A stretch of DNA of 52,698 nucleotides. It comes from Alcanivorax sp. GTDB taxonomy: Bacteria > Pseudomonadota > Gammaproteobacteria > Pseudomonadales > Alcanivoracaceae. Positions 14,117-52,698 of this stretch are shown here, piece after piece. The first letter of the stretch is position 1. The number at the start of each line of letters is the position of its first letter. The DNA lies in contig JAKUPL010000029.1 in NCBI GenBank assembly GCA_022449455.1, positions 1 through 52,698 of the forward strand, written 5' to 3'. The notes beneath the pieces were generated by a model, which saw nothing but the letters and a program-made list of their open reading frames with translations, had not been told where the DNA came from and did no database searches. The translations under genes and the position numbers were made by a program.

Positions 14117-15319
14117 ATGTCCGAGTCCACCCCCGTCCTGCGCCTGCGAAAGAACGAAGAGCGCCGCCTCAAAGCCGGCCACGATTGGATCTATGCCAAT
14201 GAGGTGGACACCGGCGAAACCCCGGTGAAAAGCCTGCCCGCGGGCGCCGCCGCCCGGGTCGAGGACGCCCGTGGCAAACCCCTGGGGCGGGCGCTGCTGA
14301 GCCCGAACTCGCTGATCGTCGGCCGTCTTTACAGCCGCGACTCGGAACAGGAACCCAGCCGCAGCTTCTTCAAGAAGCGCATCGAACAGGCGCTGGCGTT
14401 GCGCGAAACCCTGTTCCCGGCGCCGGGCTACCGGCTGGTGCACGGCGAGGCCGACGGCCTGCCGGGGCTGGTGGTGGACCGGTATGACGACACCCTGGTG
14501 CTGCAGGCCGGCACCGCCGGCATGGAAGCGCACCTGGAGACGGTGGTGTCGGCCCTGGACGCGGTGCTGTCGCCCACCAACATCGTGGTGCGCAACGAAG
14601 CCGGCGTCCGCGAGCTGGAAGATCTGCCGCTCTATACCCGGGCGCTGAAAGGCGACGTGCCCGAGTCGGTGACCCTGAGCGAAAACGGCGGCCGCTTCAC
14701 CGCGCCGTTGCGCGAGGGGCAGAAGACCGGCTGGTTCTTCGATCACCGCGCCGCCCGTGCGCGCATGGCGCCGCTGGCCAAGGACGCCCGGGTGCTGGAC
14801 GTGTTCGCCTACTGCGGCGGCTGGGGCGTGCAGGCGGCGCTGGCCGGCGCCCGCGAAGTGACCGGCGTGGACAGCTCCGGCCTGGCGCTGGACTACATGC
14901 ACCGCAACGCGGAGCTGAACGGCGTGGGTGACCGGCTGCGCACGCTGGAGGGCGACGCCGTGGCGGCCATGAAGGAGTTGATCGCCGACGGCGAGAAGTT
15001 TGATCTGGTGATTCTGGACCCGCCGGCGTTCATCAAACGGCGCAAGGATTTCAAAAACGGCCTGGCCGGCTACCACGCCATCAACGAACTGGCGGTGCGG
15101 CTGGTGAAACCCGGCGGTTATCTGATCTCCGCGTCCTGCTCCATGCACCTGCCCGCCGACAAGCTGCTGGACGTGATGCGCGCCTCCGCGCGGCACATCG
15201 ACCGCGCCCTGCAGATCATCGGTCAGGAAGGCCAGGGCCCGGACCATCCGGTGCAACCGGCGATGCCGGAAACGGCCTATCTGAAAAGCTGGTTCGGGCG
15301 GTTGCTGTTCCGGTTTTAA
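14117..15319 (+). CDS. rlmI: class I SAM-dependent rRNA (cytosine-C5) methyltransferase, RlmI-like
   Basis: A 400-residue RlmI/RlmO-type enzyme that methylates a cytosine in 23S rRNA (C1962 in E. coli). It has an N-terminal PUA domain (LRLRKNEERRLKAGHDWIYANEV), a RNA-binding middle region, and a Rossmann methyltransferase domain with the SAM loop (VFAYCGGWGVQAAL), the LDPPAFIK motif and a cysteine in SASCSMHL. The length matches the family (about 396). The ATG at 14117 gives the natural N-terminus. An in-frame ATG at 14090 would add 9 residues. Repeat copy B follows directly downstream. Confidence 0.85.
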   Translation: MSESTPVLRLRKNEERRLKAGHDWIYANEVDTGETPVKSLPAGAAARVEDARGKPLGRALLSPNSLIVGRLYSRDSEQEPSRSFFKKRIEQALALRETLFPAPGYRLVHGEADGLPGLVVDRYDDTLVLQAGTAGMEAHLETVVSALDAVLSPTNIVVRNEAGVRELEDLPLYTRALKGDVPESVTLSENGGRFTAPLREGQKTGWFFDHRAARARMAPLAKDARVLDVFAYCGGWGVQAALAGAREVTGVDSSGLALDYMHRNAELNGVGDRLRTLEGDAVAAMKELIADGEKFDLVILDPPAFIKRRKDFKNGLAGYHAINELAVRLVKPGGYLISASCSMHLPADKLLDVMRASARHIDRALQIIGQEGQGPDHPVQPAMPETAYLKSWFGRLLFRF

Positions 15320-15330
15320 GGCCTGACGGC

Positions 15331-15441
15331 CAGTTAAAAGTGAAAAGTTGAAAGTTAAAACGCGGGGAAGGTCGCATCAGACGCCAAGGCCGTGCCCGCG
15401 CGTCTTTTCAACTTTTAACTTTTAACTTTTAACTTTCAACT
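15331..15441. repeat. dispersed heptad palindrome, copy B
   Basis: Left arm of GTTAAAAG/GTTGAAAG units (about 15331-15360), an imperfect GC-rich core containing GGCCGTGCCCGCG, and a longer right arm of TTTAACT/TTTCAACT units to about 15441. It fills the gap between the converging rlmI-like and lysE-like genes. The arms are less perfectly paired than in copies C and D, consistent with an older copy. Confidence 0.8.
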
Positions 15442-41176: not shown

Positions 41177-41340
41177 GCCAGTTGAAAGTTAAAAGTTAAA
41201 AGGGCCGGGCTGAGGGGCCGTGCCATGACCTCCGGCCGGTCAGGGACTTGAATGTTGCGGCTCTTCCCCGCGGGCAGGGCTTTCGAGTCCGCAAAGGGCC
41301 AGCCCGCGTTTCAACTTTTAACTTTTAACTTTCAACTGGC
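41177..41340. repeat. dispersed heptad palindrome, copy C
   Basis: The arms are perfect 26-base inverted repeats (41177-41202 and 41315-41340) made of AGTTGAA/AGTTAAA units. The 112-base interior is GC-rich, includes a GGGGCCGTGCC piece of the family core, and has partial hairpins. It lies between the converging hemS-like and yqcC genes. Confidence 0.9.
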
Positions 41341-41385: not shown

Positions 41386-41706
41386 CTAAAAATGCGCGTC
41401 GAAGTCGCGGATCAGGGCGACCAGCCGATCCGTGTCCTCGGGCACGTCGCGCAGGGTTTCCTCGGCCAGCGGCGCCACGTCGCATTGGGCGGGCAGCGGG
41501 TGGTCCTCGGCCAGGATCGCCCGAAAGCGGGCGATGAACACCCACTGCAGCCACTGAGTGAATTTCATGGTGTCGGCGAAGAACGGCGTGGCACTCTGAA
41601 ACGCCGCCGGCTCCGGCGGCAGGGTGTCCCAAAGGCGCAGCCCTTCCATTTCCGCCTGCATGTCGTTGAGCAGGCCGGCCAGGGCCTGGCGTTGGTCGTT
41701 GGTCAT
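41386..41706 (-). CDS. yqcC: YqcC family protein (DUF446)
   Basis: A 106-residue helical protein of the YqcC/DUF446 family: LLNDMQAEMEGLRLWDTLPPEPAAFQS, then PFFADTMKFTQWLQWVFIARF. Some homologues accompany tRNA pseudouridine synthase TruC, but here it ends the dapF-xerC operon. Its ATG overlaps the stop of the HAD gene by one base (TGATG), implying coupling. Confidence 0.88.
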   Translation of the reverse strand: MTNDQRQALAGLLNDMQAEMEGLRLWDTLPPEPAAFQSATPFFADTMKFTQWLQWVFIARFRAILAEDHPLPAQCDVAPLAEETLRDVPEDTDRLVALIRDFDAHF

Positions 41707-42413
41707 CAGTTGTCCAATAGCGGCAGCAGGTCCGGCAGTTCCCGCAGATGGTGAATGTGATGGTCGGGGCGATCCAGGTCGTCGGGCCAGTCCAGATCGA
41801 TCAGGTTGGCCCACACCGCCTGGAACCCGTGGCGCCGGGCGGCGTCCACGTCTTCCACCGGATGATCGCCCACATGCAGGGCCTGGCCCGGCTCCACCCC
41901 GGCACTGCGCAGCGCCGCCCGGAACATGTCCGGCTCCGGCTTGCGCCGGCCGATGCTCTCCGCGGAATGATGAAAGCGGAACAGATCGGCGATGCCGATC
42001 CGTTTCAGGTCCGAGTTTCCGTTACTGAGGGCGCCCAGCGTGTAGCTGTCGGCGAGTGTCTCCAGCACCTCCAGGGCGCCGGGAAAGAAACTCACCCGGT
42101 TGCGCGCCTCGTGGAACACCAGAAAGGCGTCGGCGGCGATGTGGCGCGCCTCCTTATCCTCGAACCCGGCGGCCATGAAGGCCTCGGCCATGGCGTCGCG
42201 GCGCAGGCGGGTAAGGTTGTTCAGATAATCCGGATGCTCGCGCACCAGCCGGTCGCGCACCGTGCGGATGCGCTCCGGGGTGAGCGCCCGGGCGGCGTCC
42301 GGATGGTGGTCGGCGATCCAGTCGCTGGTGGTGCGTTCGGCCTGGCGTATCACCTCGTCCACCGGCCACAGGGTGTTGTCCAGGTCGAAGGTGATGAGTT
42401 TGAGTCCGGTCAT
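41706..42413 (-). CDS. yigB: HAD-IA family hydrolase (YigB-like)
   Basis: A 235-residue HAD phosphatase with motif I ITFDLDNTLWPVDEV, motif II in LGALSNGNSD, the lysine in GRRKPEPDMF and motif IV HVGDHPVEDVDAARR. By position after dapF, DUF484 and xerC it matches YigB, which dephosphorylates FMN in the riboflavin pathway. The gene lies 87 bases after xerC. Confidence 0.9.
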   Translation of the reverse strand: MTGLKLITFDLDNTLWPVDEVIRQAERTTSDWIADHHPDAARALTPERIRTVRDRLVREHPDYLNNLTRLRRDAMAEAFMAAGFEDKEARHIAADAFLVFHEARNRVSFFPGALEVLETLADSYTLGALSNGNSDLKRIGIADLFRFHHSAESIGRRKPEPDMFRAALRSAGVEPGQALHVGDHPVEDVDAARRHGFQAVWANLIDLDWPDDLDRPDHHIHHLRELPDLLPLLDN

Positions 42414-45005: not shown

Positions 45006-45315
45006 GGGGGATCCGGGGGCAGTTTGTTGAGACGCTTCATTGTACGGGGGGGTTGGGCGTGGGAACAGGGGCGGGTGGATCAGTTGAAAGTTCAAAGTTA
45101 AAAGTTGAAACGCGCTTGAGGCACGCTGGGGCGGCGCGGCCGTGCCCGCGTTCAGGGGTAACCCGCGCTCTGACCGGCCACCTGGCCGCGGAAAGGGCGG
45201 GCGGCGCCTCGCCCTTTCAACTTTTAACTTTGAACTTTCAACTGCCCGGAAAAGCCTATCGCGGCGGAAGCCGCTCCTACCTACAATGGTCGGCCCCAAC
45301 GTCGCGGAACCGCCC
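45006..45315. other. divergent intergenic region between dapF and rlmJ
   Basis: A 310-base gap with no supportable gene. Most of it is occupied by heptad palindrome copy D (45081-45244). The remainder should hold the divergent promoters of dapF and rlmJ, but no convincing -35/-10 pair stands out. Confidence 0.7.
45081..45244. repeat. dispersed heptad palindrome, copy D
   Basis: The arms are perfect 30-base inverted repeats (45081-45110 and 45215-45244) of AGTTGAA/AGTTCAA/AGTTAAA heptads. The interior includes the core GGCCGTGCCCGCG. Unlike copies A to C it sits between divergent genes, so a simple terminator role does not explain it. Confidence 0.92.
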
Positions 45316-46146: not shown

Positions 46147-46216
46147 CAGCGCCGCGGAATGCTACCTCGGAGCGTCTCGGTGTGGCCCCCCTTCCGGGAC
46201 CCTTGAGAACAGGACG

Positions 46217-47434
46217 TTACACCTCCCCGGCGTTATCCAACTCCACCGCCTCATGCATCCGTTCCAACAGATCCGGGAACGCCGCCAGCACCCGGTTCCA
46301 GCTGGGAATGAACGGCTTGTCCCGGGGATGCTCCAGAAACGCCTTGCCCGCCTCCATCAGATTGTCCGCGAACAACTCCACCGCCTGCTCCTCGCTGTGA
46401 CGATCCAGCTTCAAACCGTTCATCAGCGCATCGTTGTAATAGGCCTCGATCAGATCCAGAGCGATGCGGTAGTAGGTAGCCTTGATGGTGCGGAAATCCT
46501 CCACGTTGATCTGCACACCCAGGGTGGCGAGCTTGCGATAGAGCGCCTTGGCGATGTCCAGGCTCATGCGGTTGAGGCCGCCGCCGGCGTCGTCCTCGGA
46601 CATGGGCTGATGCTTGTGGTCGTAGGCATCGGCGATGTCCACCTGGCACAGCCGCTTGGTGGAATAATTGCGGTGCACCTCGGACAGCACGCCGATCTCC
46701 AGCCCCCAATCGCTGGGAATGCGAATGCTCTCCAGCACGTCGGTGCGCATGGAAAATTCCCCGGACAGCGGATAGCGGTAGCTGTCCAGATATTCCAGAT
46801 AGGGCAGGTTGCCGTAGATTTTTTTCAGGGCGCGCAGCAGCGGCGTCACCATCAGGCGCGCCACCCGGCCGTTGAGCTTGCCGTCGGCGATGCGCGGGTA
46901 ATAGCCCTTGCAGAATTCGTAATTGAACTGGGGGTTGGCCACCGGATAAATCAGCCGCGCCAGCAGGCCCCGGTCGTAGGTGACGATGTCGCAGTCGTGC
47001 AGGGCCACCGCCTCGGTGCGGGTGGTCTGCACGTAGCCGGCGCAGTACCACACATTGCGGCCCTTGCCGGGCTCGTCCGGGGCCAGGTCCTCGCCGCGCA
47101 GCTCCGCGTCCAGGGCCTGCAGGCGCGGGCCGTCGTTCCACAGAATGCGATGGTGCTGCGGCAGCCGCGAAAAGAACTCCCGGGCGCGCAGAAACTGGTC
47201 CCGGTCGGCCCGGTCCAGGCCGATGACGATCTCGCTCAGGTACGGCACCCGCGCCAGCTCGTCGACGATGTGGCTCAGCGCCGGGCCCTCCAGCTCGGAA
47301 TACAGCGACGGCAGAATCAGCCCCATGGGACGCCGTTTGGCGAAGCGGGTCAGCTCCTGTTCCAGGTCTTCCACGGAACGCTGCTGCAGATTGTGGAAGT
47401 TGGTGATCAGACCGTTCTGGTAGAAATCACTCAT
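46217..47434 (-). CDS. gpgS: glucosyl-3-phosphoglycerate synthase-like glycosyltransferase
   Basis: A 405-residue GT-A glycosyltransferase resembling GpgS (GT81), which joins a nucleotide-activated glucose to 3-phosphoglycerate. Visible segments are LILPSLYSELEGPALSHIVDELARVPYLSEIVIGLDRA, the metal-binding region ALHDCDIVTYDRG, and YPLSGEFSMRTDVLESIRIPSDWGLEIGVL. The adjacent MPGP-type phosphatase overlaps its start by 8 bases. Together they would make glucosylglycerate, a compatible solute used in salt or nitrogen stress. Mannosyl transfer is the alternative. Confidence 0.85.
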   Translation of the reverse strand: MSDFYQNGLITNFHNLQQRSVEDLEQELTRFAKRRPMGLILPSLYSELEGPALSHIVDELARVPYLSEIVIGLDRADRDQFLRAREFFSRLPQHHRILWNDGPRLQALDAELRGEDLAPDEPGKGRNVWYCAGYVQTTRTEAVALHDCDIVTYDRGLLARLIYPVANPQFNYEFCKGYYPRIADGKLNGRVARLMVTPLLRALKKIYGNLPYLEYLDSYRYPLSGEFSMRTDVLESIRIPSDWGLEIGVLSEVHRNYSTKRLCQVDIADAYDHKHQPMSEDDAGGGLNRMSLDIAKALYRKLATLGVQINVEDFRTIKATYYRIALDLIEAYYNDALMNGLKLDRHSEEQAVELFADNLMEAGKAFLEHPRDKPFIPSWNRVLAAFPDLLERMHEAVELDNAGEV

Positions 47435-52558: not shown

Positions 52559-52622
52559 GAGTGAAAAGTTGAAAGTTAAAAGCGCGGGCACGGCCGTACC
52601 GGCGTCGAGGCCCGCCGCCGCG
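52559..52622. repeat. dispersed heptad palindrome, half copy E
   Basis: Only the left arm (GTGAAAAG, GTTGAAAG, GTTAAAAG units, 52559-52582) and the start of the core (GCGCGGGCACGGCCGT) are present before the insertion sequence begins at about 52623. The right arm is either beyond the insertion or lost. Confidence 0.75.
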
Positions 52623-52698
52623 TGGACTGGCCCCACTTAAGTAGACACGGGTTGTAAAGTCGCCGCATAGGCGTTGGGGGTGAGTCCGCCCAGCGTCA
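52623..52698 (-). mobile_element. 3' end of an IS3-family insertion sequence
   Basis: From about 52623 a terminal repeat-like sequence, TGGACTGGCCCCACTTAAGT, leads into the end of a transposase frame on the minus strand. The visible part is the right end of an IS3-family element running out of the window. Confidence 0.8.
52637..52698 (-). CDS. IS3-family transposase OrfB, C-terminal fragment
   Basis: Nineteen codons to a TAA read TLGGLTPNAYAATLQPVST. LGGLTP is the typical near-terminal motif of IS3-family OrfB (rve domain) transposases. The gene starts beyond the window, so completeness cannot be judged. Confidence 0.82.
   Translation of the reverse strand, partial: TLGGLTPNAYAATLQPVST

Follow-up and report, generated by a model that had tools for sequence, protein, structure and literature searches.

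Intergenic palindromes with AGTTRAA heptad arms in Alcanivorax share ends with a PF05635 gene-bearing copy and probably belong to a family of small mobile elements

Introduction

In Coxiella burnetii, the intervening sequence (IVS) of the 23S rRNA is described as a 428-nt element with one S23-type gene and a 28-bp stem formed by the terminal inverted repeats (PMC4990558). Such intervening sequences are sporadically distributed and, according to the same account, have been regarded as mobile elements or as what transposition left behind; the earlier suggestion that they are mobile, with the gene needed for mobility, is credited in PMC4990558 to Ralph and McClelland (1993). The elements described below resemble the Coxiella IVS, as portrayed in that account, in having one S23-type gene within the element, terminal inverted repeats and a sporadic distribution. 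Unlike the intervening sequences as described there, they are located between protein genes, have heptad-array arms of many kinds and include, in the genome studied here, abundant gene-less copies. No rRNA was recovered at the gathering score from 20 loci with a gene of the S23-type family PF05635 (14 from a sample of Pseudomonadota and six others), nor from the contig with which this study begins.

Intergenic heptamer arrays have been described in several other bacteria. In two Xanthomonas genomes, GGGAATC heptamers, mostly in four units, form 70 and 75 inverted pairs, which prefer co-oriented gene pairs and are under-represented between diverging genes; they were ascribed to G-quadruplexes, and the passages of that report used here link them to no gene (PMC4692102). 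The palindromes studied here are likewise intergenic inverted heptamer pairs, mostly of four units, but AGTTRAA has no G-tract, and hence offers no G-quadruplex unit, and still favors three to four units. In Geobacter metallireducens, many tandem repeats of 7–8 nt are found, two classes of which are paired on opposite strands at variable distance, and these were read as sites for a global regulator or for IHF/HU (PMC2700814). They are similar to the repeats studied here in being present in many copies and in opposite-strand pairs, and differ from AGTTRAA in their units (GTTGCTYN, TCTCCGTS and MTYCTGA). The TAACTGA heptamers of the Beggiatoaceae also form numerous intergenic arrays with a patchy distribution across phyla, but, as reported, 169 sets are direct repeats and one is indirect, and most are located just 5' of start codons (PMC4679880).

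Here, we have analyzed a contig of Alcanivorax sp. that contains palindromes with arms of AGTTRAA heptads; the whole stretch of 52,698 nucleotides is referred to as the window. Searches of the open-licence literature gave no match to the AGTTRAA arms as letter strings and, among the matches listed, no publication that links PF05635 with heptad arrays.

Results

Five palindromes in the window

Five copies of an AGTTRAA-armed palindrome, A to E, were identified in the window, none of which contains a gene; their coordinates are given without strand. Copy A (80–178) has arms of three (80–100) and four heptads (151–178) around a core (101–150) with a GC-rich inner stem at 109–148, and is located at the contig start, where only the right-hand neighbor is visible. 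Copy B (15332–15441) has arms of four (15332–15359) and five heptads (15407–15441) around a core at 15360–15406, and is flanked by converging frames that end at 15319 and 15449. Copy C (41177–41340) has perfect arms of 26 bp (41177–41202 and 41315–41340) and a core (41201–41309) with an end of type Y to the left and of type X to the right, as defined below. Copy D (45081–45244), the focal palindrome, has perfect arms of 30 bp (45081–45110 and 45215–45244), a core at 45110–45215 and diverging flanking genes with starts near 45006 and 45318, which, judged by eye, we take to be dapF-like and rlmJ-like, respectively. Copy E (52560–52622) consists of a left arm (52560–52580) and half a core, and is interrupted at position 52623 by an insertion-sequence end (TGGACTGGCCCCA..., 52623–52698) that continues past the contig end; the adjoining gene is presumably argH, as named in the sequence-only reading.

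With up to two mismatches, the 14-mer AGTTRAAAGTTRAA matched the window 25 times, as compared to 0.08 matches expected from shuffles, and all matches were within the five copies. The core motif GGCCGTGCCCGCG had five exact matches, in copies A (twice), B, D and E, while copy C has it only in a form with two mismatches, a level at which matches are close to chance (21 observed, 19.9 expected). No Rfam matches were obtained in the window at the gathering score, and RNA folding was strong in the three copies that were folded (z-scores of -11.2, -7.6 and -9.0 for A, C and D).

The sequence-only reading had listed five intergenic palindromes with a recurring core, perfect arms of 26 and 30 bases in copies C and D, three copies between converging genes and copy D between diverging ones. 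The arms of C and D and the position of D agree with this description. Five copies are indeed present, although E is one-armed, and the core recurs in exact form in all copies except C. Converging neighbors are confirmed for B, whereas A is known from one side only.

Elsewhere in the window, a 66-bp stretch (46153–46218) matches many places in related genomes. On the 3' side of copy C, a frame that appears HAD-like by eye overlaps a second frame (41386–41814 and 41706–42413), and since 41397–41649 is conserved in relatives, either the gene or the sequence may contain a frameshift.

Arms and cores across the genome

The genome to which the window belongs (G000; 4.22 Mb in 70 contigs) contains 225 matches to the 14-mer and 99 matches to a 21-mer pattern of three heptads, which confirms the recurrence of the (AGTTRAA)n arms that was expected from the window. 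The backwards patterns matched 11 times and once, respectively, but provide a poor control because tandem AGTTGAA mirrors itself. At 61 sites in the window and 45 fetched regions, a script called 48 inward-facing pairs, no outward-facing pair and 14 single arms, two of which mark the ends of a single long copy; the regions were picked for having heptad matches, so that weak-armed copies elsewhere escape this count. Most arms have three to four heptads, with exactly four in 30 of the 48 left arms and 32 of the 48 right arms.

The core is asymmetric. In 30 of the 48 pairs, it has an X end (ACGCG or AGCGCG) on one side and a Y end (AGG..) on the other, while eight pairs are X-X, three are Y-Y and seven are unclear. 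X ends open a conserved block of approximately 41 bp, ACGCGGG..GGCCGTGCCCGCG, which corresponds to the core motif noted in the sequence-only reading and is located at 45110–45150 on the plus strand in copy D (ACGCG...GTGCCCGCG). Many of the longer cores gain a hairpin similar to CGGCCGAAGGCCGCGGG, and some contain a second type of heptad, CAAGCTR, as judged by eye.

The arms of one element do not covary. Among the 48 copies with two arms, paired heptads had the same base at their A/G position in 70 of 141 cases if counted from the outside and in 65 of 143 cases from the inside, as compared to mean agreements of 0.565 and 0.568 for shuffled right arms, and from the inside 1999 of 2000 shuffles agreed as well as or better than the real arm pairs. 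The exactness of the pairing had been taken to indicate gene conversion or selection on a cruciform, an argument that fails in the absence of covariation, and arms as perfect as those of C and D are not typical of the 48 pairs. Any two arrays built from the same unit are close to complementary, and pairing of the arms therefore requires no compensating changes. In an alignment of 27 copies of the X block, the would-be pairing columns hardly vary, and covariation cannot be assessed from them for this reason.

Few copies were located between diverging genes, 3 of 46 with a crude gene caller and four if copy D, which it miscalled, is included, as compared to 11 of the 42 adjacent gene pairs in the window. 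For copies between converging genes, the median distance to the stop codon was 7.5 bp. The genes between neighboring palindromes on contig C4 were ordinary by eye.

Insertion-sequence ends of two types, located at 52623–52698 in the window and at ends of the contigs C4 (start), C20, C22, C35, C37, C47, C56 and C57, adjoin heptad arms in eight of eight cases seen among 49 contig ends, and OrfA of one of the two types matches HTH_Tnp_1. Since seven of these ends surfaced through their arms, a preference of the insertion sequences for the arms is suggestive only. Two heptad copies are identically spaced in contig C12 and in C4:82538–83496, which suggests that C12 repeats part of C4, either by assembly or by duplication.

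Comparison of orthologous sites in related genomes

AGTTRAA triplets were dense in G000–G003 (51 to 127 matches), sparse in G011 (eight matches) and G012 (two matches), and absent from G004–G010, all of the same genus. Few were found in one sister genus and none in the other genera of the family or in 21 genomes from other families of the order.

At site D, which was compared in G000–G004 and G009–G012, the element is present in G000, G003 and G011, while no heptad arms were found in G002, G004, G009 and G012; G010 has another palindrome, and G001 has CAGGATW heptads around an X-like core. At site C, only G000 has the element. REP pairs are located there in G003 and G012, and in G002 a contig break is flanked by REP sequences; G011 has another palindrome, and G001 has heptads of the GCTTG type. 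Site B carries the element in G000, G001 and G002 and REP pairs in G003 and G011; the element is absent from this site in G004, G009, G010 and G012. Eight sites on contig C4, with flank identities of 80–100%, were filled, missing, present as a remnant or replaced by REP pairs in the relatives compared; the site at C4:82538, for example, is filled in G003. At several sites, such as C4:31386, the spacer is replaced rather than cleanly interrupted, and inspection by eye of sites B, C and D, the eight C4 sites and the PF05635 site described below revealed no target-site duplication, although the flanks at these sites diverge. An intergenic site may have a REP pair of the GATCGCGACTGAAGTCGCTCCTAC type in one species and a heptad palindrome in a related one (41177–41340 and 15332–15441 in the window; loci L322, L324 and L325).

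We infer from these comparisons that the palindromes are mobile, and recent mobility, one of the options named in the sequence-only reading, fits both the presence or absence of copies at orthologous sites and the difference of one whole heptad in the right arm at site B (five in G000 and four in G002). If the palindromes were instead selected regulatory sites or bidirectional terminators, comparable to the paired tandem repeats of Geobacter metallireducens, their strong predicted folding (z from -7.6 to -11.2 in the three copies folded), their scarcity between diverging genes and their short distance to stop codons between converging genes would be expected. Such sites should be retained, yet those at C4:31386, C4:48775 and C4:35245 are not conserved in G002 despite flanks that are 95–100% identical, and relatives have REP pairs, other palindromes or nothing in the same place, which makes selected sites an improbable explanation.

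REP/BIME sequences have no heptad arms, use a different recognition sequence and depend on a Y1 transposase. The palindromes are like them in being intergenic and in occupying the same sites in related species, and the alternation with REP pairs as well as the presence of Y1_Tnp genes in all 12 genomes of the genus searched could mean that the palindromes are themselves sequences of the REP/BIME type, mobilized by a Y1 tyrosine (RAYT) transposase. We consider this very improbable, as the anatomy of the palindromes is unlike that of the REP pairs in these genomes. RAYT was rejected as the mobilizer since the number of Y1_Tnp genes, two to five per genome, does not track the heptad load and none of the 15 Y1_Tnp loci inspected, of 19 in G000–G003, G011 and G012, has an array within approximately 1.5 kb.

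A long copy with a PF05635 gene

One long copy in G000 (C23:286695–287154; 460 bp) has (AGTTRAA)4 arms and a 404-bp core with a gene. The product of 114 amino acids matches PF05635, 23S_rRNA_IVP (E = 1.5e-32), as well as TIGR02436, four helix bundle protein, and the sole sequence relative in the PDB at an E-value of 0.001 is 2gsc, the XCC0516 protein of Xanthomonas campestris, whose one entry contains five chains. This connection to PF05635 is absent from the sequence-only reading.

The right inner end of the long copy, AGGGCGGCTTCGTGGCCGGT, is identical at 20 of 20 positions to that of the gene-less copy at C70:14276. Using a threshold of at least 8 of the first 12 bases, 19 of the 96 ends of gene-less copies in G000 match the PF05635 element of the same genome, as compared to none of the 96 for PF05635 elements of three other genomes; the other 77 have no close match to the ends of the PF05635 element. 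Elsewhere, inner ends matched the resident element at two of two ends in Terriglobus albidus (one copy), at 2 of 10 ends in Chitinophagaceae 26-R-25 and at none of four ends in Bacteroides, two of which are from another Bacteroides genome, and none of the gene-less ends in these three taxa matched PF05635 elements of other genomes. In Chitinophagaceae 26-R-25, gene-less and gene-bearing copies both have A(A/G)TTGAA arms followed by AATG, as judged by eye. These shared inner ends support a common descent of gene-less and gene-bearing copies within one genome. The gene-less copies are short and have arms and inner ends in common with the long copy, as would be expected of MITEs if the long copy is their autonomous partner.

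We also compared the site of the long copy in related genomes. The orthologous PF05635 gene has AGTTRAA arms in G000 and G003, GCAAGCT arms in G004 and G010, GCAAGCY arms in G001 and CAGGATW arms in G011. The proteins encoded at this site are 59–99% identical to each other, and 33–44% identical to four proteins of another subfamily. The site is empty in G002, G009 and G012, with spacers of 40, 37 and 85 bp, respectively; G005, G006 and G008, in which the two flanks are mutually inverted, were left out of the comparison. The differences between the arms reflect either an exchange around an old insertion or repeated hits on the same site.

PF05635 genes and heptad arrays in other genomes

Inverted pairs of AGTTRAA arms were found in at least 111 stretches of named genomes, and the records include, among the matches listed, Bacteroidota, Planctomycetes, Acidobacteria, Verrucomicrobia, candidate phyla, Clostridia and Alloalcanivorax. 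The 23 genomes searched for PF05635 comprised 12 from the genus and 11 with inverted AGTTRAA pairs; 22 of them, all but G012 of the genus, had a match, as compared to none of the 14 controls. The heptads around these genes are of many kinds, including AGTTRAA, AATTGAA, GCAAGCT, CAGGATW, TTGACAG and TAGTTGC.

PF05635 genes are associated with heptad arrays. In a strict test, which demands an array of period 7 on both sides with units that agree to one base after inversion, 29 of 66 PF05635 genes passed. Since the genomes in this set were partly chosen for their heptads, we repeated the test on a sample of 397 Pseudomonadota picked without regard to heptads, 62 of which have PF05635, and 18 of the 28 best-scoring loci examined passed. 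As controls, only 1 of 228 windows shifted by 0.7–1 kb and 1 of 110 neighboring reading frames passed. At other periods, the numbers for the 66 and 28 loci were seven and one (period 8), one and none (period 10), and four and two (period 14), while no locus in either set passed at periods 5, 6, 9, 11 or 12. The failures at period 7 (37 of 66 and 10 of 28) include arrays of period 8, 10 or 14 as well as weak arms. With a looser score for inverted alignment, 54 of 66 and 19 of 28 loci were above the 99th percentile of the controls, and 29 and 10 above their maximum. A cross-pairing control was unusable, as some flanks have repeats in common (maximum 222.5), and shifted windows took its place.

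Co-occurrence of PF05635 and AGTTRAA triplets in the sample of Pseudomonadota is uninformative, since only 3 of the 397 genomes contain triplets, two of them with PF05635. The genome G247 has one triplet match and no match to PF05635, and in the genus, G004–G008 and G010 have PF05635 without triplets. In G001 (127 matches) and G002 (51 matches), which are rich in AGTTRAA arrays, the three PF05635 elements found have other or unclear arms.

Among 12 PF05635 genes fetched from plasmids, eight passed the strict test, although the arrays of one of them (L438) look directly repeated by eye. Those that passed include genes flanked by cas6 and cas4 in Anabaena, by ribonucleotide reductase genes in Nostoc edaphicum and by Fe-S assembly genes in Riemerella. 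No phage records matched PF05635. On the cyanobacterial plasmids L437, L438 and L447, four-helix-bundle genes are located between cas6 and cas4 or between cas10 and a cmr3-family gene, with inverted heptads in L437, weak arms in L447 and the directly repeated arrays in L438, and these genes may be insertions.

The controls also bear on the idea that the heptads are simple repeats that grow by slippage, with inverted pairs created by template switching at hairpins and PF05635 genes that are incidental. Among long simple repeats, heptamers are reported to be the most frequent in the majority of genomes studied, and slippage has been proposed as the cause (Mrazek, 2007, as cited in PMC4679880). 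The additional heptad in the arm at site B of G000 and the lack of covariation between arms are consistent with such growth, but it leaves unexplained the shared inner ends, the two-ended core with X and Y on opposite sides in 30 of 48 pairs, the absence of elements at orthologous sites and the location of PF05635 genes between matching arrays, as compared to only 1 of 110 neighbors. Growth by slippage is therefore an unlikely account of the family.

Discussion

The palindromes probably belong, as members without a gene, to a family of small mobile elements, and a PF05635 protein may copy them in trans by means of the heptad arrays. They would be MITE-like, non-autonomous members of a family without a recognized transposase, to which the 23S rRNA intervening sequences would belong and perhaps also the Xanthomonas heptamer pairs. 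A full member would consist of an array of about four heptads, a short end, the PF05635 gene, another short end and the matching inverted array, and a gene-less member would have GC-rich hairpin blocks in place of the gene.

Rings of the PF05635-type fold may bind nucleic acid. We hypothesize that the protein takes part in the movement by recognizing the heptad arrays in trans and bringing copies into intergenic DNA, often near stop codons. A more speculative suggestion, which draws on the five chains in the 2gsc entry, is that each protomer of the ring reads one heptad. In the transcript, near-complementary arrays of one unit could form an RNA stem without letter-by-letter covariation, and RNase III could excise this stem, in the way described for the intervening sequences of 23S rRNA (PMC4990558). 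Excision of this kind would make insertion between co-transcribed genes tolerable.

Some observations count against this reading. No target duplication was seen, spacers were often replaced, the strict test failed for 10 of 28 and 37 of 66 genes, and the AGTTRAA load does not correspond to the arm type of the resident PF05635 elements in G001 and G002. Moreover, we know of no enzyme activity or catalytic domain in PF05635, which would agree with a scheme in which an unrelated enzyme of the host or of an element uses the inverted repeats to move the palindromes and the PF05635 protein is only cargo or a chaperone. The related protein Avd of diversity-generating retroelements (DGR) is described as acting with a reverse transcriptase (PMC10053308). 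Between the arms we saw no candidate enzyme, reverse transcriptases not being among the families surveyed, and we give little credence to this scheme.

Returning to elements moved by the PF05635 protein, a wider claim may be put forward tentatively, with the balance slightly against it: PF05635 proteins could define a large mobile class in several phyla, without a known transposase, in which interchangeable inverted arrays of about four 7-nt units are read by the protein, and which includes the 23S rRNA intervening sequences, the Xanthomonas pairs and the palindromes studied here. On this reading, the different arms around an orthologous gene or core, at the PF05635 site and at site D, would be swaps, as if the element's own machinery wrote the arrays.

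Such a class would join strands that have so far been separate, namely genes annotated as "four helix bundle protein" or "S23 ribosomal protein", the intervening sequences of 23S rRNA, and intergenic heptamer arrays, which have been ascribed to slippage, G-quadruplexes or regulators. If this is true, a PF05635 gene is the sign of a mobile element whose ends are of a new kind, and the four-helix-bundle genes located within cas, nrd or suf clusters may be insertions rather than parts of these systems.
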